Below are positions 7,399 through 20,092 of a stretch of DNA of 64,000 nucleotides, piece after piece. The notes below the pieces were generated by a model that saw nothing but the letters and a program-made list of their open reading frames with translations, searched no databases and was not told where the DNA came from. Position 1 is the first letter of the stretch. Every line of letters starts with the position of its first letter. The translations under genes and the position numbers were made by a program. The stretch lies in NCBI RefSeq assembly GCF_011038975.1, contig NZ_JAAKEC010000005.1, forward strand, positions 1 to 64,000, given 5' to 3'. The stretch comes from Adlercreutzia sp. ZJ176. Lineage in GTDB: Bacteria > Actinomycetota > Coriobacteriia > Coriobacteriales > Eggerthellaceae.

Positions 7399-9840
7399 CT
7401 ACTTGCCCAAGCCGCTCATGGCAGGAGCCGTCGCGTCGGCGAGGTCGTCCTCGTGCTCCTTGAGGCGGCGCGAGAACAGCGCGCGGCGGGTGGCAACGGA
7501 CGCGGCGTAAACCAGCGTTAACACGATGCCGAGGATGATGCAGAGGTGCACCCAGCAGCCCGCAGGGCGCTCAGCCGGCGAGGTAGCCTCGGCATCGACA
7601 TCAGCGAGCGACGGGCGACCGCCGCCGACGCCGTCCTCGGCCCCGTCCTCAAGCGCCTTCGCAGGAGGCGTGACCGCAGGGGCAGCTATCCCATCGGGCG
7701 CCGCGCCGGGAACCTGCTCCGGCGTCACAGGAACCGAAACAGCAGGCGCAACGCCAGAAGCGGCCGGCCCCGGCGTCACATCGGCAGGCGTAGCACCACC
7801 TGGAGTCACCCCGCCAGGGATGGTGCCACCAGGAGCGTCCGGAACATCGCCAGGCGCGTCAGGGACCGGCGCGGGCGTGTCGGGCCCTGGCGTGGGCGTG
7901 TCAGGTCCCGGCGCAGGTGGCGCAGGCGTCGGAATCGGGGTGTCAGGCGCTGGTATAGGAGCTGGAGGCGGCGTGGGCGCAGGCGTGGGCGTGTCAGGCC
8001 CTGGCGTGGGCGCAGGCGTGGGCGTGCCGGGCCCCGGAGTCGGCGTATCGGGTCCCGGCGCAGGTTCCGGCGTATCGGGTCCCGGCGCAGGCGTCGGCGT
8101 GCAGCTTGGCACGAACTTGGCGTAGAACGTCGTCGTGCCTTCCCAGCCACCCTCGGGAGTGCGGGGGACGAAAAACGCAGCGGGGCTGACCTTTGAGCTC
8201 AAGCCCTCGTCGCCATACCAGCCGTCAAACGCATAGCCCGGCCCGGGCGTTGCCGTGGAGCCCTTGGCGACAGCGCTTGCGTTCCTCGGGGTGACCCATT
8301 CCTCTGAGGGGCTCACGTCTCCGCCCGACGTTGCAGCTTCTCCGCCGAGCGTTTTGGCAACGTAGTTTATCCTGCCGTTCGGCCTCCACTGCGCATAGAG
8401 AACGGTGCTCTCATTGAGCTGTATCTGATCTCCGGCTTCGTATCGCACGCCCGTGCCCTGAGCCTCGGTATCCCAGCCGTCGAACTCATGGTTGAGCATC
8501 GTCCACGTACATTCTTTGACGGTAGCCTCGTCTCCCGGGCGGTACGCTCCGCTGTCGACCACAGGCGCACCTGCCACCGCGCCATTGGGATCATAGCTGA
8601 GCGAAACCTCATTGCTCCACAGAGCCTTGAAGGTGAGCTCAGCTCCGCTAGCAGGATCTCTCACGTCGCCTAGGTACGGCCAGAGCGCATTGACGTCCAC
8701 GCTTTCGCCTGCGCTATAAGTCCGCCCGTTAATGCCCAGCTGCCAACCATGGAATTGCGCCCCTCCTTTAGCAGGCTCTTCCTGAGGAAGCGTGATGACG
8801 TTGCTGTTCGGATGCTCCGTAACGTTGCCGTGGAAATAGCTCTTGCTGTCGACATAGCTGGACTCGCCGGCGAGCTGGCCGCCGTCCAGATCGTATTTCA
8901 CCTTGACGGGAATAGGGGTAGCCGCGATCACGAACTGGCGATATCTATACGATTCCTTGTCGTTCTTGCCATAGTGAAACTCTTTCGTGCAACCACGCGC
9001 TTTGGCCGAGTCGACTGCGTTCAGGAAATCCTCGAAGGGGCTCAGCGTGCCTTTATGGCGAATGTTGTCGATGTCGGAATACGTCCCGTTCATCCATCTC
9101 CCCGCACCGTCACTGCTCGCAGTTGAGGAATGCCTGAACGTCGTTCCGACGCCGTATCCTTCCTTCGTCTTCACATAGAACTCAGACCTGGTGCTCTTCT
9201 CGACCGCAAACGACTCGCCTATCCCCATCTCAGCCAGCTCGCTGCCGTTGATGCTGTAGAAGACCTGCACGTTGGAGGAGCTTTGGCCCTGGCCGTCACT
9301 GACGGCGAAGGTGGTGAAGAACAGGTTCGCCCTTTGAGGGTCTTCCACGACGGTCATTTCCCTTGCGGCCGTATAGAAGACGCCGTCCAGCGCAACTCTG
9401 GCTATGACCGTGACCTCGCCGCCAGTCAGACCGGTTATCGTTCCGTCATCAGCAACAGAGGCGACGCTTGTCACGCTCGAGGCCCATTCCACCTCGGTGC
9501 CAAAGGGCAGCGCAACAGGGCTGCCATCCCGCTCTGCCAAGAGGCTCAGGCTGGCTCCATTGCCGGATCCGACGTAGATCTGGTCGGGGCCCTCGATGGA
9601 AACGACGATCGCCGATTCGGAAGCCGACGAAGCCTCGCCGCCGTCTTCCCCAGGAGCGGCGAACGCAGGGCTGCTCGTCGTGCCCAGGACGAGCACACCT
9701 GACAGGAGCACCAAGAGAGCTTCGCCTTCGAGGGTCCCCTTTACATCCGTGAATCTCTCAAGCATCTCGACCACCCAATCCCATTTCCGCGACTTGCCGC
9801 CTGTCACGCGGGTTGTGACCGCGCCTCGTGCGGCCTCCAT
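7399..9840 (-). CDS. Exported surface protein with Big_2-like and InlB B-type repeats
   Basis: This 813-residue secreted protein has an unusually long leader: a charged stretch, a hydrophobic core near residues 40-58, and a likely signal cleavage after SSPAFA. An Ig-like Big_2-type region follows (about 75-160), then three or more Listeria-Bacteroides (InlB B) repeats, each ending in motifs like FDGW and LYAQW (about 310-590). Next is a proline-rich wall-spanning stalk of PTPAPGPDTP-like repeats (about 590-720), and finally one membrane helix and a basic tail. There is no canonical LPxTG, so anchoring by the C-terminal helix is likely. Such proteins act at the cell surface, often as adhesins. 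It is separated by 310 bp from the B12 operon and probably has its own promoter. Confidence 0.85.
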   Translation of the reverse strand: MEAARGAVTTRVTGGKSRKWDWVVEMLERFTDVKGTLEGEALLVLLSGVLVLGTTSSPAFAAPGEDGGEASSASESAIVVSIEGPDQIYVGSGNGASLSLLAERDGSPVALPFGTEVEWASSVTSVASVADDGTITGLTGGEVTVIARVALDGVFYTAAREMTVVEDPQRANLFFTTFAVSDGQGQSSSNVQVFYSINGSELAEMGIGESFAVEKSTRSEFYVKTKEGYGVGTTFRHSSTASSDGAGRWMNGTYSDIDNIRHKGTLSPFEDFLNAVDSAKARGCTKEFHYGKNDKESYRYRQFVIAATPIPVKVKYDLDGGQLAGESSYVDSKSYFHGNVTEHPNSNVITLPQEEPAKGGAQFHGWQLGINGRTYSAGESVDVNALWPYLGDVRDPASGAELTFKALWSNEVSLSYDPNGAVAGAPVVDSGAYRPGDEATVKECTWTMLNHEFDGWDTEAQGTGVRYEAGDQIQLNESTVLYAQWRPNGRINYVAKTLGGEAATSGGDVSPSEEWVTPRNASAVAKGSTATPGPGYAFDGWYGDEGLSSKVSPAAFFVPRTPEGGWEGTTTFYAKFVPSCTPTPAPGPDTPEPAPGPDTPTPGPGTPTPAPTPGPDTPTPAPTPPPAPIPAPDTPIPTPAPPAPGPDTPTPGPDTPAPVPDAPGDVPDAPGGTIPGGVTPGGATPADVTPGPAASGVAPAVSVPVTPEQVPGAAPDGIAAPAVTPPAKALEDGAEDGVGGGRPSLADVDAEATSPAERPAGCWVHLCIILGIVLTLVYAASVATRRALFSRRLKEHEDDLADATAPAMSGLGK

Positions 9841-10150: not shown

Positions 10151-10855
10151 CTACCTCAGGGCGTACTTCGTCCTCACGCGATCGAGCTTCTTCTTCCAAG
10201 GCACGTAGATCACCAGCAAAAACGCCACCGTGGACACCGCATGCACCAGGTCGAACGGCAGCCCGGCGCCGTAGGTGAGCAGCGCCGCCTCCCACGTGAG
10301 GGGATGCACGAACCCCACGAGCGTCCACGTGTTCAGCAGCGCGCCGTACAGAAGCGCCGAGAGAAAGCCGTACGCGCAGACGACGGCGCGGCGCGGCGCG
10401 TCCTCGCGCGTCTCGAACGCCCCGCGCTCGGACAGGACGCCCGCGAGGTACCCCACGAGCCCCCACGCGTACATCTGCCAGGGCGTCCACGCGCCCTGCC
10501 CGAAGAAGAAGTTGGAGGTGAGCGCCGCGAGCGCGCCCGTCATGAAGCCGACCCTCCGCCCGAACACCGCGCCCGCCAGGATGCAGATGGCGCTCACGGG
10601 CTTCACGTCGGGGACGGGCGCGAACAGGATGCGCCCCGCCGCCGCCAGCGCGCCGAGCACCGCCGCGGGCATGACCTGGCGCAACGCGGGGCTTGACGCC
10701 TCCCAGCCCGCGAAGAACACGGCCAGCGCGCCCACCGCCACCGCGAAGGTGAGCAGCGCCGTCTGGTCGAACTGGAAGAAGGCGGCGAGCGCCAGCGCCA
10801 CGGGGACGCAGGCGAGCACGACCGGCTCGAGCGCGGCGAGCACGCGCGCCCTCAT
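10151..10855 (-). CDS. ECF transporter S component (probably cobalamin)
   Basis: This 234-residue, strongly hydrophobic protein has about six membrane helices and the GAWTPWQMYAWG-type stretch typical of one class of ECF substrate-binding (S) subunits. It would bind the vitamin within the membrane and be toppled by the EcfAT module encoded immediately upstream. Its ATG overlaps the stop of the EcfA gene by 4 bp (ATGA), so translation is coupled. Cobalamin as substrate is inferred from the transcobalamin-like proteins and the B12-type leader at the head of the same operon. The S-subunit sequence alone does not prove it. It is the last gene of the operon. Confidence 0.85.
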   Translation of the reverse strand: MRARVLAALEPVVLACVPVALALAAFFQFDQTALLTFAVAVGALAVFFAGWEASSPALRQVMPAAVLGALAAAGRILFAPVPDVKPVSAICILAGAVFGRRVGFMTGALAALTSNFFFGQGAWTPWQMYAWGLVGYLAGVLSERGAFETREDAPRRAVVCAYGFLSALLYGALLNTWTLVGFVHPLTWEAALLTYGAGLPFDLVHAVSTVAFLLVIYVPWKKKLDRVRTKYALR

Positions 10856-12471
10856 GCGCGGGGGCCTTTCGCGGCGGGATCGGGCGCGGAGCCGGGCTGC
10901 GCGATGTATGGCGCGGCGGCTCCCGCCTGGCCCGCCCGGTTCGCCTCTTCCTCATCCCAGAGCTGTGTGAACTGGTCAGGCTGCGGGCGGTAGAAGAGGT
11001 TCTCGCGGCAGAACGCGCGCGCGGGCTGGCTGCACGCCACCTCGCCGTCGAAGAGCATCGTCATGTCATCGGCCACGCGCGAGGCGAACGCCAGGTCGTG
11101 CGTCACCAGCACCACCTGGCACCCCTCGGCGCGCAGCTCGAGCAGCGCGCGCGCCACCTCGCACTTCGAGGGCGCGTCGAGGCCCTTGACGGGCTCGTCG
11201 AGCAGCAGCAGGCGCGGGCGCGTGAGCATGAGCTTCGCCAGCGCGACCTTCTGCTGCTGCCCGCCGCTCACGTCGAAGGGATGCCGGTCCGCAAGCTCCC
11301 CGATCCCCATGCGCGCCATGGCCGCGTCGATCTCCGCGCTGCCGTAGCCTGCGCCGTGCGCCCATTCGCCCAGCTCATCGCGCACCGTATCGCACACCAG
11401 CAGCGCCTGGGGGTCTTGCGGGAGCAGCGCCTGCTCGCGGCGCAGGGCGTTGCGCACGCGCCCGCGCTCAGGCGCGAGCACGCCCGCGAGCACGCGCAGC
11501 ACCGTGGACTTCCCGCAGCCGTTGCCGCCCACGATGGCGTGGACGCCCGGGCGCGAGAGGTCGAGGTCCATGTTGCGCAGGACCCACGCGGCGTTACGCG
11601 CGTAGCGGAAGAACGCGCCCTCGAGCGCGAGCGGGGTCGCGGGGGCGGGCTCGGGGAAGGAGCGGGGTGCGCGGCGGAACGAGTCCACGAAGGCGGAGCG
11701 AGTGGCGCGCGGACCGGCGGGGCCTTGCTCCAGCGCAAGCGCTTCCGCCCCCTCCCCTTCCGCACCCCAAGCATGCGCCTCGCCTTCCCGAATCCGCAGG
11801 TCATCGAGGGCGCAGGGCAGCACGCGCCCGCCCTCCACGCGCGCGGCGCACGTGGCGTAGTCGGCCATCGCCTCGGGGCTGTGCGTAGCCACCACCACCG
11901 TGATGCCCAGTTCGCGGTTCACGCGGAAGAGCGCGTGCAGGAAGCTGCGCTGAGCCACGGGGTCGAGCTGCGCGGTGGGCTCGTCGAGCAGCAGCAGGCG
12001 CGGGCGCAGCGCGAGCACCGCCGCCAGGTTCAGCAGCTGTTTCTGCCCGCCTGACAGCGTGGACACCTCCCGCCGAAACCACGGCTCCATGCCGAAGAAG
12101 TGCGCCACCTCGGCCACGCGGCGGCGCATCGTGTCCTGGTCGAGCCCTTCGTTCTCCAGCCCGAACGCCAGCTCGTGCCACACCGTGTCGCACACGATCT
12201 GGTTGTCGGGGCTCTGGAACACGTACCCCACGTGCGGCGCCCGTCCCCCCGCGGCCACCTCCTCGCCGAACGCGCGCACCGCGCCCGCGCGTGCGCCCGC
12301 CGGCGCTATCTCGGGCTTCGCGCAGCGCAGAAACGTGGTCTTGCCCGACCCCGTGTTGCCCACGAGCAGGGCGAACGCGCCCTGGGGCACCGCCCAGTCC
12401 GCGTCCTCGAGCGCAGGGGCATCAGCGCCCGCGTACGTGAAGCCGAAGCGTGTGTAAGTCAGCGCATCCAT
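10852..12471 (-). CDS. ecfA: Fused double ATPase of an ECF transporter (EcfA-EcfA')
   Basis: This 539-residue protein carries two complete ABC ATPase cassettes in one chain. The first has Walker A NTGSGKTT (about residue 40), signature LSGGQKQ and Walker B LLLLDEPTAQLD. The second has Walker A GNGCGKST, signature VSGGQQQ and LLLLDEPVKGLD. In most Firmicutes EcfA1 and EcfA2 are separate; actinobacterial ECF systems often fuse them. It powers uptake with EcfT and the S subunit on the inner face of the membrane. The start is the ATG at 12471, which overlaps the end of ecfT by 13 bp; in-frame sequence further upstream only reads through ecfT in another frame. Confidence 0.93.
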   Translation of the reverse strand: MDALTYTRFGFTYAGADAPALEDADWAVPQGAFALLVGNTGSGKTTFLRCAKPEIAPAGARAGAVRAFGEEVAAGGRAPHVGYVFQSPDNQIVCDTVWHELAFGLENEGLDQDTMRRRVAEVAHFFGMEPWFRREVSTLSGGQKQLLNLAAVLALRPRLLLLDEPTAQLDPVAQRSFLHALFRVNRELGITVVVATHSPEAMADYATCAARVEGGRVLPCALDDLRIREGEAHAWGAEGEGAEALALEQGPAGPRATRSAFVDSFRRAPRSFPEPAPATPLALEGAFFRYARNAAWVLRNMDLDLSRPGVHAIVGGNGCGKSTVLRVLAGVLAPERGRVRNALRREQALLPQDPQALLVCDTVRDELGEWAHGAGYGSAEIDAAMARMGIGELADRHPFDVSGGQQQKVALAKLMLTRPRLLLLDEPVKGLDAPSKCEVARALLELRAEGCQVVLVTHDLAFASRVADDMTMLFDGEVACSQPARAFCRENLFYRPQPDQFTQLWDEEEANRAGQAGAAAPYIAQPGSAPDPAAKGPRA

Positions 12472-13571
12472 CGCAGGCGGTCTCCTAGGATGACGAGGCA
12501 CGGCAGGAAGAAGTACAGCGCGTAGGGCACGTAGCCCCACCACAGCGTGAGCGTGCTCAGGGAGGGGTAGAAGCGGTACTGCGACGCGGCCGTCCACGCG
12601 CAGGCGGCGCACACCGCGCCGAGGCCGAGGACCACGGCGAGCGCGAGGGCGTCGGCGCGGGAGAAGCGCTGCCGACGGTAGGTGGTGCGGGCACGCCCGC
12701 TCGCCCACCCGCGGCTGCGCATGGCGTCGGCCGTCTCGAGGGAGTCCTCCATCCCCCACCCCACGAGGGCGGAAGCGACGCGCACGCCTTCGCGCAGCCG
12801 CCCGGCGCCGCTGGGCGCGATGGGCGGGCGGGAGGCGCGGAGGGCGCGTGCGCCGGCGGCTTCGCTTGCGCGTTGGGACGCGCAGGCGGCTGCGCTTTCG
12901 CTCGCTTCCGCATGCGCAAGCCCGTTCGCGCTCGTCCGCGCGACGTTCCGACGCGCCGCCGTGCATGCCTTCTGGACGGCGCTTATCTCGCGGCCCTGCC
13001 GCACGAAGCGCGGGATGAGGCGCATGCACATCGACGTCATGAGCGCCACCGTGGGCAGGCGGTTGCCCAGCACGCCCGTCACCTTGTCGGACGTGAGCAC
13101 GCACGCCGCGTTGGCGAACTCGACCATGACGGCCACGAGCAGCGCGCCCATGCAGAGGCCGTACGCGAAGCTCTCGAGGTACACGGCGCGCACGCCGATG
13201 CGGAAGAGCTCCGTCGAGCCCATCGGGGCGAAGAGCGGATTGGCGAGCGCGACGAGCACCAGCATCGGGACCTGCCACAGCGCGGCGCACGCCACCTGGC
13301 GGCCGCCGCGCAGGCACACGCCCAGGCAGATCGCCGCCGCGAGCGCGAGCGCCACGAGCACCGGCTGGAAGGCGGCCATGGTGAGCACGAGCGCGATGGC
13401 GGCGTAGGCCACCGCCACCGCGGGGTGCAGCGCGTCGAAGGCGCCTGCGGCAAAGGAGCGGGGACCTTCGCCGGGAAGGCCCTTCTGCCCTTCGCGGCAG
13501 GCGCCCTGCGCATCTCGGGCGCCGCCGGGATCGCCGGCGCCTGCGCGGCTATGGGTTTCGCCGTGGGCCAT
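12459..13571 (-). CDS. ecfT: ECF transporter T component (EcfT/CbiQ family)
   Basis: This 370-residue membrane protein has N-terminal helices and a cytoplasmic coupling region with the expected Ala-Arg-Gly signature (here ADAMRSRGW). It is the scaffold that links the double ATPase to the S subunit. An alanine- and arginine-rich insertion (about residues 195-250) separates the membrane and coupling parts and looks like low-complexity expansion. The chosen ATG at 13571 sits 5 bp beyond the stop of the DUF4430 gene, consistent with translational coupling; an in-frame extension upstream would run through that gene in another frame and is not credible. Confidence 0.88.
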   Translation of the reverse strand: MAHGETHSRAGAGDPGGARDAQGACREGQKGLPGEGPRSFAAGAFDALHPAVAVAYAAIALVLTMAAFQPVLVALALAAAICLGVCLRGGRQVACAALWQVPMLVLVALANPLFAPMGSTELFRIGVRAVYLESFAYGLCMGALLVAVMVEFANAACVLTSDKVTGVLGNRLPTVALMTSMCMRLIPRFVRQGREISAVQKACTAARRNVARTSANGLAHAEASESAAACASQRASEAAGARALRASRPPIAPSGAGRLREGVRVASALVGWGMEDSLETADAMRSRGWASGRARTTYRRQRFSRADALALAVVLGLGAVCAACAWTAASQYRFYPSLSTLTLWWGYVPYALYFFLPCLVILGDRLRWMR

Positions 13572-13576
13572 CGCGG

Positions 13577-14560
13577 CTAGACGACGTAGTACCAGCGAAC
13601 AGAATCGCCTGATGAGAGCACGTAGCTGCCCGCGGGGACCATCGGCGTGGAGCCGTTGACTGAGTACATCCAGCCGCTTCCGGCGCTGACCTGCTTCTCG
13701 GCGAGCCCGTTGATGGCCGTCACGTAGGAGCTCGAGCCGCTCACGGACACGCCCGACGCGCACAGGGCGTCGTACGCCGTCGCGCCCTCGCGCAGGCTCA
13801 CCGACGTGGAGGCCATGCAGCTGGGATAGCCCGCGCTCGCGGCCTTGGAGCTGTCGACGTAGACCGACACCGTGATGGTGGCAGGGGCAGGAGCTGGCGC
13901 GGGAGTCGGCGCGGAAGGCGCAGCGGGGGCGGAAGGGGTGGAAGGCCCCGCGCCGCCGGAGTTGCCCGAGCCACCGGGTTCGCCGGAGCTGCCCGACGCG
14001 CCCGCCGCGGCGCCGCCAGCGGCAGCGTCGCCGCCAGGGGCAGCACCAGCCGAGCCGGCATCACCGTCGGCAGGACCCTCGGCGGAAGCGCCAGCGGAGG
14101 ACGCGCCGCCAGCCGCGGCCTCGGAATCGCCCGACTCCGCCGCGCCGCCTTCGCCGCCTTCGCCGACGCCCTCAGCTGGATCGACCTGCTGGCTCTGGGA
14201 TGACCCCTGCACTGCTGGCTCGTTTTCGACCACCGAGCTCGGAGAGCCGAACGCGAACACACACGCTGCGATGACCAGCACCAACGCCGCGCAAAGAACC
14301 CCGATGGCAACAGGCCGCCTGCTTCGCGGGGAAGCAGGTGCGGCGCCATTCTCGGGCTCATTGGATTTTGCCCCCGCAGCGCGCGCAGGAATCACCCGCG
14401 CATCAGCCGCCGGCGCAGCGTCATTAGCTGCAGCCACCTCGTCCTCGCACGCGCGGGCGCCAGCATCTCCAGCGCCCGGCGCAGCGTCACCATCGGCGCG
14501 AGGCGCCCCCGACTCGCTTTCGAGGGCGCCGCTCTCTTTCTCTTGATCGAGGTCAGCCAT
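13577..14560 (-). CDS. Membrane-anchored DUF4430 (transcobalamin C-terminal-like) protein
   Basis: The 327-residue product has an acidic, alanine-rich cytoplasmic N-terminus, one membrane helix (about residues 84-106), a long Gly/Ala/Ser/Pro-rich spacer, and a C-terminal DUF4430 domain (about 230-327; GATAYDAL, GWMYSVNG, GDSVRWYYVV). DUF4430 resembles the beta domain of animal transcobalamin and intrinsic factor, which closes over bound B12. The topology places the domain outside, held on a flexible stalk above the ECF transporter encoded by the next genes. A role in handing B12 from the wall-anchored protein to the S component is an inference. It lies 9 bp downstream of the transcobalamin-like gene in the same operon. 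Confidence 0.85.
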   Translation of the reverse strand: MADLDQEKESGALESESGAPRADGDAAPGAGDAGARACEDEVAAANDAAPAADARVIPARAAGAKSNEPENGAAPASPRSRRPVAIGVLCAALVLVIAACVFAFGSPSSVVENEPAVQGSSQSQQVDPAEGVGEGGEGGAAESGDSEAAAGGASSAGASAEGPADGDAGSAGAAPGGDAAAGGAAAGASGSSGEPGGSGNSGGAGPSTPSAPAAPSAPTPAPAPAPATITVSVYVDSSKAASAGYPSCMASTSVSLREGATAYDALCASGVSVSGSSSYVTAINGLAEKQVSAGSGWMYSVNGSTPMVPAGSYVLSSGDSVRWYYVV

Positions 14561-14569
14561 GCTCTTCGC

Positions 14570-16708
14570 CTAGCGGACCACGACGTCTCGCGCCGCGCGC
14601 GACGCCTTGCGGCGAGCAGCCACCGCGCAGGCGAGCGCGCCGAGCAGGGCGGCTGCGGCCACGCCAGCCGAAGCCCCCGCGTCATCTCCCGTCGGAGCCA
14701 AAGCGCTTCCCGAAGGAGTCTGGGAGCCCTGAGTCGTCTGACCAGCAGCGGGATCGGCGGCAGGCTCCTGCGACACCGCCTTCACTTGGTATACGTCAAA
14801 TGCTCCATCGGCTTTCTGGTAACCATCGTTAGCTGCCAAGGCAAGAAGCGCAACAGCAGAAGAAGCGACCTCGTCGTAAATTGTTGGACCACCAAATCCA
14901 GACAGATTGTCATTTGCAAGAGACAAGAGGAATCCCATGGGCGATGATCCATTGTCCGTGATAAGCGATCCGCTCTCCGCAGGGTCATGCCCCAAAGCCA
15001 CCAAGGCAGCGATGACGTTCGCCGTGGCATCGAAATTACTGGAATTACTCGGGGACTTATCTAAGCTAAAACCGCCATCGGCGTTCTGCATAGAGAGAAG
15101 CGCCTTCTCCGCCTTCTCTATCGCAGAGGCAACAGCTGGGTCATCTTGATAGGGCAGCAACGCGAGTATTGCCTGTGCGGTGGTTTGGGAATCGTAATAC
15201 TGACCCGATCCGAACAAACCGCCCTCGTCCTGACTCGCCAATATGAGAGAAACCAGGGCCTCCTCGCCCAGTCCCTTCGTTTGCGCATATCCAGCATTAC
15301 CGTAAACGGGAAGGATGAACACCGCTTCGTAAATATTCGGCTCGGACTTCCCCGTGAGCTCTTCCATTTCCTGCACGAGATTGCGCACCTTGTCGCCATC
15401 GGCAACAGCAGTGCAATCTACTCCAGCCGCATTGAGGCTAATGATGTACTTTCCATACTGCCCCGCGCCAGGAGCACAGCCGTACTTCTCTTCGTAAGAA
15501 GCAAAACCCTCGAATATGGCTTTGGAGTCAATGTTCTTTCCAAGCCCCAAAGAGTTGAGGGCAATGGCAGCATGCACCGCAATGGGGTAGATCACAGCGT
15601 CAGAACCGCCTTTAGAAAAGCGCGCTGCCAAATTCTGCATCAAAGTAGAAGCTTTGGCGGCGTCATATTTGTTAACAGCAGCTACGGGCCCATCCTGAGG
15701 CTGGCCAGGCTCACTGCCAGATCCGGACGAAGCATCGCCGCATATCGCAGTTCCGATCGACGGGTTGGGAGCATTTTTCCAGTCAACGGGAGCTGCGATA
15801 GGGGAAGGATAGCCCGTCCACTCGAACTGGTAGCTCGTGCCGCTTTTCAGGACGCCGCCCTCGGATGCCTCGTCACCAGACGCATACCCTCCGTTCACGT
15901 AAGACGCCCAATACTTGGAGAAGTCGCCCGCATTTCTGACCGTGGTGCCGTCGGCAAAAGTCACCGAGCAGAGGTAGCCACCGGAGAGCTCGTAGCCGAG
16001 GAGGTCCCCCGCGGACTTCGCAGCTGCGAGCAGGTCGCCCAAGGTTGCCCCTGTGCGAAAACCATAGACTTTATTGACAACTATCTCTGATTTTCCGTCA
16101 CCGTCAGAATCGTAGGCAATCGCAAGTCGAGCGCCTGGAACCAACCCGCATATCGTTGAGCTAAGCTCTGGCTCGGGGGTCGCCTTCCAATCAACGGGAG
16201 CCGCGATAGGGGAAGGATAGCCCGTCCACTCGAACTGGTAGCTCGTGCCGCTTTTCAGGACGCCGCCCTCGGATGCCTCGTCACCAGACGCATACCCTCC
16301 GTTCACGTAAGACGCCCAATACTTGGAGAAGTCGCCCGCATTTCTGACCGTGGTGCCGTCGGCAAAAGTCACCGAGCTGAGGTAGCCTCCGGAGAACTCG
16401 TAGCCGAGGAGGTCCCCCGCGGACTTCGCAGCTGCGAGCAGGTCGCCCAAGGTTGCTTTGCCGCTGTAAAAAGAATAGCTCTTATTGAGCATGAGCTCAG
16501 AACTTCTATCCCCATCGACATCATACGCAATAACAAGCGTGACGCTGCCTGTTGATTCCAGCAAGGCGCCTTCGGGCGCTTCCGTCGCCCAAGCCGGGAC
16601 GGCGGGCATGAGGCCCGCGCACAGCATGAGCGCCATGAGCGCTGCCAGCAATCGTGTCGTGAGTTTTGCGCCAGACCCCGCGGGGGGCGCGAGTTTCGTT
16701 CCAACCAT
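14570..16708 (-). CDS. Wall-anchored transcobalamin-like protein (two DUF4430-like domains plus alpha barrel)
   Basis: This 712-residue protein has a signal peptide ending near PAWA, then two DUF4430-like domains nearly identical to each other (starting about residues 38 and 174; shared FSKYWASYVNGG and SGTSYQFEW). A helical-repeat domain of about 280 residues resembles the squalene-cyclase/transcobalamin alpha-alpha barrel (LLSMQNADGGFS, DATANVIAAL). The C-terminus has an LAPTGD sorting-like motif, a hydrophobic helix and an Arg-rich tail, as in sortase substrates. The domain set is that of intrinsic factor and transcobalamin in reverse order. It most likely captures cobalamin at the surface for the ECF system downstream. 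The ATG at 16708 follows AAGGAG. The longer frame upstream reads through the leader RNA and is rejected. Confidence 0.85.
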   Translation of the reverse strand: MVGTKLAPPAGSGAKLTTRLLAALMALMLCAGLMPAVPAWATEAPEGALLESTGSVTLVIAYDVDGDRSSELMLNKSYSFYSGKATLGDLLAAAKSAGDLLGYEFSGGYLSSVTFADGTTVRNAGDFSKYWASYVNGGYASGDEASEGGVLKSGTSYQFEWTGYPSPIAAPVDWKATPEPELSSTICGLVPGARLAIAYDSDGDGKSEIVVNKVYGFRTGATLGDLLAAAKSAGDLLGYELSGGYLCSVTFADGTTVRNAGDFSKYWASYVNGGYASGDEASEGGVLKSGTSYQFEWTGYPSPIAAPVDWKNAPNPSIGTAICGDASSGSGSEPGQPQDGPVAAVNKYDAAKASTLMQNLAARFSKGGSDAVIYPIAVHAAIALNSLGLGKNIDSKAIFEGFASYEEKYGCAPGAGQYGKYIISLNAAGVDCTAVADGDKVRNLVQEMEELTGKSEPNIYEAVFILPVYGNAGYAQTKGLGEEALVSLILASQDEGGLFGSGQYYDSQTTAQAILALLPYQDDPAVASAIEKAEKALLSMQNADGGFSLDKSPSNSSNFDATANVIAALVALGHDPAESGSLITDNGSSPMGFLLSLANDNLSGFGGPTIYDEVASSAVALLALAANDGYQKADGAFDVYQVKAVSQEPAADPAAGQTTQGSQTPSGSALAPTGDDAGASAGVAAAALLGALACAVAARRKASRAARDVVVR
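15783..16456. repeat. 266-bp near-identical direct duplication within the transcobalamin-like gene
   Basis: 15783-16048 and 16191-16456 are the same length and differ at only a handful of positions, with a period of 408 bp. They encode the core of the two DUF4430-like domains. Such low divergence implies a recent duplication or ongoing gene conversion. Confidence 0.9.
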
Positions 16709-16849
16709 GTGTCGGAATCTCCTTCCAGGGCTCGATTCGATGGATGGGCATTCCGACTTCGCCTCACCTGGGCAGATCCACATGCCTGCGATCTCGCGTC
16801 GAGCCGCCGCCCTCGCGCCTGCGCACCCCTGCGACCAGGGGCGACGCGC

Positions 16850-16990
16850 CGCACGCGACAACGTTCTCGCGAGCCTTCTGCCCATCGGCGTTTACGGTTA
16901 CTGGTATAGCGAGGGATTCACACCCTCATTCCCCCAAGCTCGCCCGATTTCAAGCAAGCTCGCGCCCCGCCGGCGCAACCATCAGTGCCA
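16850..16990 (-). promoter_or_regulatory. Cobalamin riboswitch-like leader
   Basis: On the minus strand the leader holds the GGTGTGAATCC loop closed by a perfect GAGGG/CCCTC stem (16911-16927), as in the conserved P4 region of B12 riboswitches. An ACCAGTAACCGT stretch follows, comparable to the CCACTGTAA core segment, then an AAGGCTCGCGAGAAC segment resembling the B12-box side. It lies about 150 nt upstream of the transcobalamin-like gene, first gene of the ECF operon. Ligand-bound RNA would normally turn the operon off. A covariance-model search would settle the exact limits. Confidence 0.7.
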
Positions 16991-18817: not shown

Positions 18818-20092
18818 CTACTCCTCGGCCTCGGCGCTTGGCTTGGGGAGGCGAATCATCAGGGAGACGCCGAAGCCGACGAACCCTATGACGGCAAGCC
18901 CGATGAACGCGGGAACGTACGTCCCCGTCGTGTCGTAAATGGCGCCGGCTATGGTCGGGACGAAGGACGCCAGCACGGCGACGACGGGAAGGATCGCCCC
19001 GTGGATCTTGGAGTAGTGCTTGTTGCCGAAGATGTTCGCGAGCTCCGCGGGCAGGGCGGAGTTGTGCATCGCGAACCCAAGGCCGATGGCGACGTAGTAG
19101 AAGACCATGACGAAGACGTTGCTGCCGAAGAAGGCGGCGAGCAGAGCGCCGATGCCCATGGCGAGAGCGCCCAGCCCATGCCACCGCACCGGCTCGAGGC
19201 GGTCGAGGATCATGATGCCGGCGACGAGGGCCGCTATGCCGCCGAGCGCCTTGATCGAGAGGGCCCAGGAGACGTCCTCGAGGGTCAGGCCGACGGACAC
19301 GAAGTACAGGCCGGCCTGCGAGACGTTCAGGTTGAGCCCGGCAAAGCAGCAGAACGCCATGATCGCGATGAACCAGAACGCCGGGGTCTTCATCGCCTCG
19401 AGGGCGGTCTTGTCCTCCATGGTCTTGTAGACCTTCGAGACGTACGTCTTGGACTCGGCGGACACCTCGACCTTGCCGCCATCAGGAAGCTGGCCCATGT
19501 CGGCGGGCGTGTTGCGCACGAATACGGCGGCGAGGACAAGCCCTATCAGGGCGCATACGGCGACGAACCACCATCCGGCGCGCCATCCGAACTGAAGGCA
19601 GAGGGCGTTGGTGATGATCGGGTAGAGGACGGCGATGCCGGCTCCCATGATGAGCGAGATGGAGATGGCGCGCCCGCGATCCTTGATGTACCAGTGGTTG
19701 AGCGTCGTCATCGTGGGAATGGCGCCCGCGCACATGCAGCCGTAGCTCATGATGACGCCGAAGCCGACCACGTAGAAGGCGACGTTGTCACCGAGGAACA
19801 GCGCGTTGAGGCAGGCGAGCACCGCGACGATGACAGCGCCGAGGATGTACGAGAACCTCGCTCCGAACTTGGCGATGGTCAAGCCGATCAGCGGAGCGGA
19901 TATGCCCTGGACCAAGATGAACGCGCTGAAGCCGAGGCCCAGGTACGTCCGGTTCATGGTGACCTCAGGGTCGAGCGCCATGTACGAGTTGGTCAGCTGG
20001 GCGACCGTGAGGCCCAAAGCCCCCACGAAAGCGTATATGAGGCCCGACGAAACGAGCATCCTTGGTCCGGAAAAGCTTTGCTTCTCAGTCAT
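18818..20092 (-). CDS. MFS transporter, oxalate/formate antiporter-like (OFA)
   Basis: This 424-residue protein has twelve predicted membrane helices and the general layout of the OFA branch of the major facilitator superfamily, whose members exchange small carboxylates (oxalate/formate, lactate, aromatic acids). It starts with MTEKQSFSGP, typical of that group. It is the outermost of two related carriers next to a molybdenum enzyme. That placement suggests it moves the substrate or product of the enzyme, though the ligand cannot be read from sequence. The gene is 106 bp downstream of the second carrier with a strong stem-loop between them, so the two may be expressed at different levels. GAAGGGG precedes the ATG. 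Confidence 0.88.
   Translation of the reverse strand: MTEKQSFSGPRMLVSSGLIYAFVGALGLTVAQLTNSYMALDPEVTMNRTYLGLGFSAFILVQGISAPLIGLTIAKFGARFSYILGAVIVAVLACLNALFLGDNVAFYVVGFGVIMSYGCMCAGAIPTMTTLNHWYIKDRGRAISISLIMGAGIAVLYPIITNALCLQFGWRAGWWFVAVCALIGLVLAAVFVRNTPADMGQLPDGGKVEVSAESKTYVSKVYKTMEDKTALEAMKTPAFWFIAIMAFCCFAGLNLNVSQAGLYFVSVGLTLEDVSWALSIKALGGIAALVAGIMILDRLEPVRWHGLGALAMGIGALLAAFFGSNVFVMVFYYVAIGLGFAMHNSALPAELANIFGNKHYSKIHGAILPVVAVLASFVPTIAGAIYDTTGTYVPAFIGLAVIGFVGFGVSLMIRLPKPSAEAEE

Follow-up and report, generated by a model that had tools for sequence, protein, structure and literature searches.

This locus raises the question of what is imported by an operon that places two extracellular proteins in front of an energy-coupling factor (ECF) transporter, and how the substrate would reach the membrane. 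The window analyzed here is a stretch of 64,000 nucleotides from Adlercreutzia sp. ZJ176 (contig NZ_JAAKEC010000005.1, positions 1 to 64,000), in which a leader and five genes, all on the minus strand, span 16947-10151 (genes 16708-10151). We consider it quite probable that the operon is dedicated to the acquisition of vitamin B12 (cobamide), with riboswitch control, capture at the wall, a DUF4430 relay and CbrT-like ECF import. A first-pass annotation, made from the letters and their open reading frames, had proposed this interpretation, which is supported: the parts that it listed were all found in place and in one direction, on the minus strand, and the three results that it named as refuting (no cobalamin model match, folds unlike transcobalamin, an S component belonging with another vitamin) were sought and not found.

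The leader, the genes and the parts of the first gene product are as follows.
16717-16947, minus strand: predicted cobalamin riboswitch, AdoCbl-II-type, with a long variable insert (RF01689, 33.1 bits; 10 aligned leaders)
14570-16708, minus strand: first gene, secreted wall-anchored protein of 712 residues (open reading frame; start ATG 16708)
16586-16708, minus strand: signal peptide of the 712-residue protein (...PAVPAWA/TE; sequence reading)
16190-16552, minus strand: divergent DUF4430-like repeat 1 (AlphaFold2 beta-rich domain with one long helix; weak hhalign match to DUF4430)
15758-16135, minus strand: divergent DUF4430-like repeat 2, near-identical to repeat 1 (AlphaFold2; weak hhalign match)
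14804-15670, minus strand: alpha/alpha toroid with a fold like the transcobalamin alpha domain (AlphaFold2, Foldseek, weak PF00432 match)
14573-14701, minus strand: LAPTGD wall-sorting signal, hydrophobic segment and basic tail (sequence)
13577-14560, minus strand: stalked, membrane-tethered DUF4430 protein of 327 residues (PF14478, 6.1e-17; DUF4430 at 13586-13786)
12459-13571, minus strand: EcfT, transmembrane coupling subunit (PF02361 CbiQ matches in orthologues, best 1.9e-8; ADAMRSRG motif)
10852-12471, minus strand: fused EcfA-EcfA' ATPases (PF00005, 2.9e-49, two stretches; TIGR04520, 2.2e-79)
10151-10855, minus strand: CbrT-like S component, extended by a hydrophobic stretch at the N-terminus (6fnp_A, 4.4e-10 and 8.2e-19; Pfam)

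The five genes follow one another with a 9 bp gap, a 5 bp gap, a 13-bp overlap and a 4-bp overlap, all spacings being under 15 bp. A scan for promoters and terminators returned no informative site.

The transporter and its S component

The last three genes encode what an ECF transporter requires, namely paired EcfA-type ATPases, an EcfT (recognized via its family members) and an S component, as the first-pass annotation had stated. A Pfam scan of the window EcfT itself gave no match, and CbiQ (PF02361) was matched by 5 of 7 aligned members of its family. The EcfA-EcfA' fusion matched PF00005 over two stretches and the ECF ATPase model TIGR04520, the latter under the equivalog cut-off. The best Pfam match of the S component was PF07155 (ECF-ribofla_trS, 2.1e-11), followed by PF12822 (1.4e-7). 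Its closest solved structure was chain A of 6FNP, with an E of 4.4e-10 from the single sequence and 8.2e-19 from a profile; the next S component in the profile search was 4hzu_S (2.3e-5), and no other fell below E 1. The alignment to 6FNP begins at about residue 60. We take this entry, itself labelled merely 'Membrane protein', to be the ECF-CbrT structure of PMC5997447. For ECF-CbrT, ATP-driven import of cobalamin and cobinamide has been demonstrated (PMC5997447). A grouping with another vitamin was looked for and did not appear; by sequence, the S component groups with CbrT and with the S component of no other vitamin, and B12 binding and transport are predicted for it.

The leader and its riboswitch

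The first-pass annotation had described a B12-riboswitch-like leader and proposed to search it with cobalamin covariance models. Searched in this way, the leader matched RF01689 (AdoCbl-II) at 16942-16870 with 33.1 bits (E 7e-6), and this was the sole RF01689 match across the 2.72-Mb genome (E 6e-6). The score lies below the Rfam gathering score of 36.5 bits. Since a scan of the window with Rfam at the gathering threshold and a search of the genome with RF00174 both gave no match, the evidence for a riboswitch was taken from RF01689 and from the orthologues. Nine of the 18 orthologous operons scanned first have an above-threshold cobalamin riboswitch directly upstream (loci L033, L034, L035, L038, L040, L043, L048, L050 and L051). 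Far stronger matches occur in Clostridia (Desulfosporosinus, Blautia, Ruminococcus and Lachnoclostridium; E 7e-27 to 3e-5), and those of L129, L116 and L105 have E values of 7e-26 to 2e-17. Ten aligned leaders, that of the window among them, share the invariant core ...GGGAATG.GGGTG..AATCC..CGCTATACCAGTAACCGT...AAGTCGGAA... Because orthologues pass the threshold and this core is invariant, the sub-threshold leader of the window becomes solid, and the description given in the annotation holds, with the correction that the score of the leader falls short of the gathering cut-off. Judged by its sequence, the leader is a cobalamin riboswitch by regulatory class, and a response to cobalamin is predicted. 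It resembles AdoCbl-II or class-II cobalamin riboswitches (RF01689, RF00174 clan) in its core consensus and in its place upstream of a B12 transport gene, and differs from them in a score under the cut-off and an insert of about 100 nt.

The CCAG of an L5-like loop lies at 16901-16904, and a CCCTGG at 16725-16730 touches the Shine-Dalgarno sequence GGAAGGAG (16719-16726). The CCTGGA element next to the Shine-Dalgarno is invariant among the aligned leaders, and its CTGG could pair with the loop CCAG in a kissing loop; because both sides are invariant, this pairing has no support from covariation. A covariance model built from these leaders (R1) scored 124 bits on the window leader, which was in its training set, and also detected leaders in loci outside that set (e.g. 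L083, L089, L104, L108, L110, L117 and L134). Over the genome of the window it found nothing beyond the operon leader.

The import of a different, riboflavin-like or folate-like cofactor, with a chance match in the leader, would agree with PF07155 as the best Pfam match of the S component and with a leader under the gathering score. It is largely refuted, and we regard it as barely credible, since CbrT was reached by profile at E 8e-19 with only one other S component at 2e-5, and the riboswitch is conserved and strong in the orthologues.

Some related loci carry more than one riboswitch. Two Desulfosporosinus operons are preceded by tandem cobalamin riboswitches, two copies each (L137 1112-1824 and L152 982-1547), and a Gordonibacter-like locus has two AdoCbl-II matches (L035 12602-12955). 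In Blautia, a second cobalamin riboswitch followed by an extra DUF4430 open reading frame lies downstream of the main operon (L154 11671-13200).

B12 physiology of the host

In the genome, one B12 protein is MetH-like (methionine-synthase-like) and another is of the B12-radical-SAM type; CbiC and CobS were searched for as well, and neither was found. Because B12 enzymes are present and these two synthesis proteins absent, complete cobamides must be imported, and on this gene content the host, an Adlercreutzia-like member of the Eggerthellaceae, must be a B12 auxotroph in need of imported B12. The substrate might otherwise be an incomplete corrinoid or another cobamide (cobinamide, pseudocobalamin), or the operon might serve general corrinoid salvage rather than B12 as such. 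CbrT carries cobinamide too (PMC5997447), and B12 riboswitches also control general corrinoid genes; without CobS and CbiC, however, an incomplete corrinoid probably could not be finished and a complete cobamide would be needed, so that we find this alternative quite unlikely.

The two surface proteins

The start of the 712-residue protein was placed at ATG 16708 from its spacing to GGAAGGAG and from the alignment of orthologues. A longer open reading frame from 16885 is an unlikely start, as it begins within the riboswitch. LAxTG is the motif of class E sortases, and the genome holds four sortase-family genes. The first-pass annotation had described this protein as wall-anchored, with two DUF4430-like domains joined to a helical barrel. 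The signal peptide, two repeats, helical toroid and LAPTG tail were all found, and the likeness of the repeats to DUF4430 proved weaker than claimed. In the window protein, Pfam recognized neither repeat; other members of the first-gene family bear a clear Pfam DUF4430, and DUF4430 is fused to the toroid in L137 and L145. Along about 100 residues the two repeats (15758-16135 and 16190-16552) are near-identical, and they may stem from a recent duplication or from gene conversion.

AlphaFold2 predicted two beta-rich domains and a toroid, with a mean predicted local distance difference test score (pLDDT) of 84 and mostly 90-98 in the helical part. A phmmer search of the protein against PDB sequences gave nothing useful. 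With Foldseek over the PDB, transcobalamin chains filled ranks 1-10 (best E 2.2e-6) and terpene cyclases came after.

The membrane-tethered DUF4430 protein of the annotation was confirmed. The 327-residue protein has a single transmembrane segment, then a Gly/Ala/Ser/Pro-rich stalk and a DUF4430 domain (PF14478, 6e-17). Relatives carry lipoprotein-like versions of it. A DUF4430 alignment searched against PDB sequences returned low-complexity matches only.

Recurrence of the operon

We compared 80 named loci, 53 of which extend at least 5 kb upstream of EcfT. The operon recurs in many gut bacteria and in two phyla, in Coriobacteriia and Clostridia, where strong cobalamin riboswitches precede it. 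A DUF4430 gene adjoins EcfT in 45 of the 53 loci; the surface gene has a toroid in 16 loci and a beta-propeller in 20, and in none of these 36 does it have both. Within the family, S-component orthologues occur in 110 of 138 genomes and DUF4430 in 103, with both in 101, neither in 26, the S component only in 9 and DUF4430 only in 2; these genomes are related, and hence the counts are not independent. The nearest named genome is that of Adlercreutzia sp. ZJ473, whose S component is 94% identical.

The mode of attachment varies between loci, by LAxTG, CWB2, SLH or dockerin modules. The surface protein of Desulfosporosinus is attached via CWB2 repeats and that of L145 via SLH domains. Ruminococcus and Lachnoclostridium encode the toroid and DUF4430 proteins in separate neighbouring genes, with dockerin matches and the same riboswitch upstream. 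As a sorting signal serves here and CWB2, SLH or dockerin elsewhere, surface display has been kept repeatedly. The anchor varies around a set of parts that remains intact (DUF4430, toroid or propeller, riboswitch and CbrT-like transporter), and we judge this turnover to be the strongest evidence for surface capture of B12 as the selected function.

The propeller of the relatives was modelled with a pLDDT of 84.5 and a predicted template modelling score of 0.83. Its identification as a BtuG homologue is unsupported: the best matches were BamB, YxaL and designed propellers, and it is BamB/PQQ-like by sequence and by fold.

The surface proteins of the ECF transporter could be adhesins or structural wall proteins, co-regulated by B12 without binding it, in an operon that nonetheless imports B12. 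Toroid folds serve many functions, including thioester and complement-like domains, and L145 matches TED_complement (PF07678) at 2.5e-8; the toroid sequence is nearer to cyclases than to transcobalamin, and giant versions carry Ig-like, CBM_X2 and Listeria-repeat modules. We hold this unlikely, because DUF4430 with a toroid is the specific module pair of the animal B12 carriers, and its association with B12 riboswitches and CbrT-like S components holds over two phyla while the anchors change.

Several observations do weigh against a B12 acquisition operon with a transcobalamin-like surface layer. In VIA-align, drimenyl diphosphate synthase (Z 21.9; root-mean-square deviation 3.1, 255 aligned) outranked intrinsic factor (Z 17.6; 3.5, 226 aligned), and profile searches with the toroid sequence favoured squalene-hopene-cyclase-like chains over transcobalamin. 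Compared by hhalign, the repeats of the 712-residue protein matched DUF4430 with an E of 0.019 and a probability of 2%, co-linear over 82 columns, and their order relative to the toroid is the reverse of that in the animal carriers. Pfam Cobalamin_bind (PF01122) had no match at E 0.1 among the operon proteins. Two further BtuFCD/FecBCD-type ATP-binding cassette (ABC) systems in the genome mean that the operon may not be the only B12 route, and in some Collinsella loci no DUF4430 gene is recognizable beside the ECF genes.

Because the profile searches gave cyclase-like chains, sequence by itself was not accepted as proof of kinship with transcobalamin. In the predicted model the toroid fold is settled, which upholds the proposed likeness to transcobalamin at the level of fold; by itself the fold neither tells transcobalamin from terpene cyclases nor identifies the ligand, because Foldseek and VIA-align rank the two oppositely. 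A terpene cyclase function was dismissed for a protein that is secreted, wall-anchored and encoded in a B12-riboswitch operon.

Other observations concern related loci and neighbouring genes. In Collinsella L093 (5358-7583) and L118 (5691-7535), EcfT-EcfA-S is kept and an open reading frame of 600-740 residues without a Pfam match replaces the DUF4430 gene. Clostridial DUF4430/toroid proteins in L143 (3909-6320) and L144 (4265-6471) have Pfam dockerin matches, and propeller proteins in L107 (455-1993) and L132 (5323-6801) have a C-terminus that looks dockerin-like by eye; such B12-regulated dockerin proteins are possibly attached to a cellulosome-like scaffold. L060-L071 form a second, more distant S-component group (31-50% identity), which has an EcfT/EcfA of its own and in most cases no DUF4430 gene. 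Immediately ahead of EcfT, L068 has a leader that matches the core of the cobalamin riboswitch; in L064 an AdoCbl-II match lies near the S component. This group is possibly a paralogous corrinoid importer. In the window, the gene that follows on the minus strand (7399-9840) has a separate gap upstream and was kept outside the operon. Its product is a large surface protein in which Listeria-Bacteroides repeats are combined with a Pro-rich stalk. A major facilitator superfamily transporter of the lactate/oxalate-formate antiporter type is encoded at 18818-20092 (minus strand).

Comparison with known uptake systems

The operon resembles ECF-CbrT of Lactobacillus delbrueckii (PDB 6FNP; CbrUVT of comparative genomics) in its S component, its ECF module and its B12-linked context. 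It differs in that the ECF module is encoded within the operon itself, that the S component is extended at its N-terminus by a hydrophobic stretch which CbrT lacks, and that two extracellular DUF4430/toroid-type proteins precede the S component. In the text of the CbrT paper there is no mention of a DUF protein or of a riboswitch (PMC5997447).

With animal transcobalamin, intrinsic factor and haptocorrin the system shares an extracellular alpha/alpha toroid and a putative DUF4430-type beta domain; in contrast to them, the window protein has two divergent DUF4430-like copies, a wall anchor and no PF01122 match, and is a candidate B12 binder. The operon would work like a transcobalamin-fed importer, and we do not class it as transcobalamin because PF01122 is unmatched and B12 binding is only inferred.

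BtuG2/BtuB of Bacteroides would be alike in having a surface protein thought to pass B12 to a transporter, and some relatives of the operon use a surface beta-propeller in place of the toroid. Unlike Bacteroides, the organism is Gram-positive, without an outer membrane or BtuB, and in the window operon no propeller was found by Pfam or AlphaFold2. As in BtuFCD, an extracytoplasmic binding protein would feed an ATP-driven importer; here the importer is of the ECF type rather than a type II ABC transporter, and DUF4430 proteins stand instead of BtuF.

A model of B12 capture and import

We propose that, when B12 is plentiful, the riboswitch would fold and the putative CCAG/CCCTGG kissing loop would hide the ribosome-binding site, turning the operon off, and that scarcity of B12 would allow its expression. 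The 712-residue protein, anchored to the wall by LAPTG, would then capture extracellular B12, held probably between the toroid and the DUF4430-like domains, as in transcobalamin and intrinsic factor. From the stalked membrane-tethered DUF4430 protein, B12 would pass to the S component, which is CbrT-like, and import would be powered, to judge from strong homology, by the EcfT/EcfAA' motor. Binding of B12 by the surface proteins, the relay, the direction of hand-over and any interaction with host carriers are steps that we infer; the same is still true of the intrinsic-factor-like capture, the relay and the BtuG/BtuB likeness put forward by the first-pass annotation.

The ECF-CbrT part of this system is already known; what seems undescribed is the addition of a transcobalamin-like surface layer to ECF import of the CbrT type. 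In the open-access literature, we found no paper that connects B12 uptake in bacteria with surface proteins of the DUF4430, toroid or propeller kind. We lean, with some reserve, towards a broader view in which Coriobacteriia and Clostridia share an ECF B12 system fed by extracellular binders, a wall or cellulosome capture protein (with a toroid or, interchangeably, a BamB-like propeller) and a tethered DUF4430 relay. Such a system could compete with host intrinsic factor for B12 or take B12 from it, and would show the modules of animal B12 carriers at work in bacteria.

The candidate system is widespread, in Adlercreutzia-, Gordonibacter-, Slackia-, Olsenella-, Blautia-, Ruminococcus- and Desulfosporosinus-type bacteria. 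If its surface proteins bind B12, a layer for capture outside the cell would be added to ECF transporters, for which the S component is thought to be the sole means of capture. The two modules of human intrinsic factor and transcobalamin would then seem to have a bacterial counterpart, possibly a relative, and bacterial competition for host B12 would become testable in Gram-positives.

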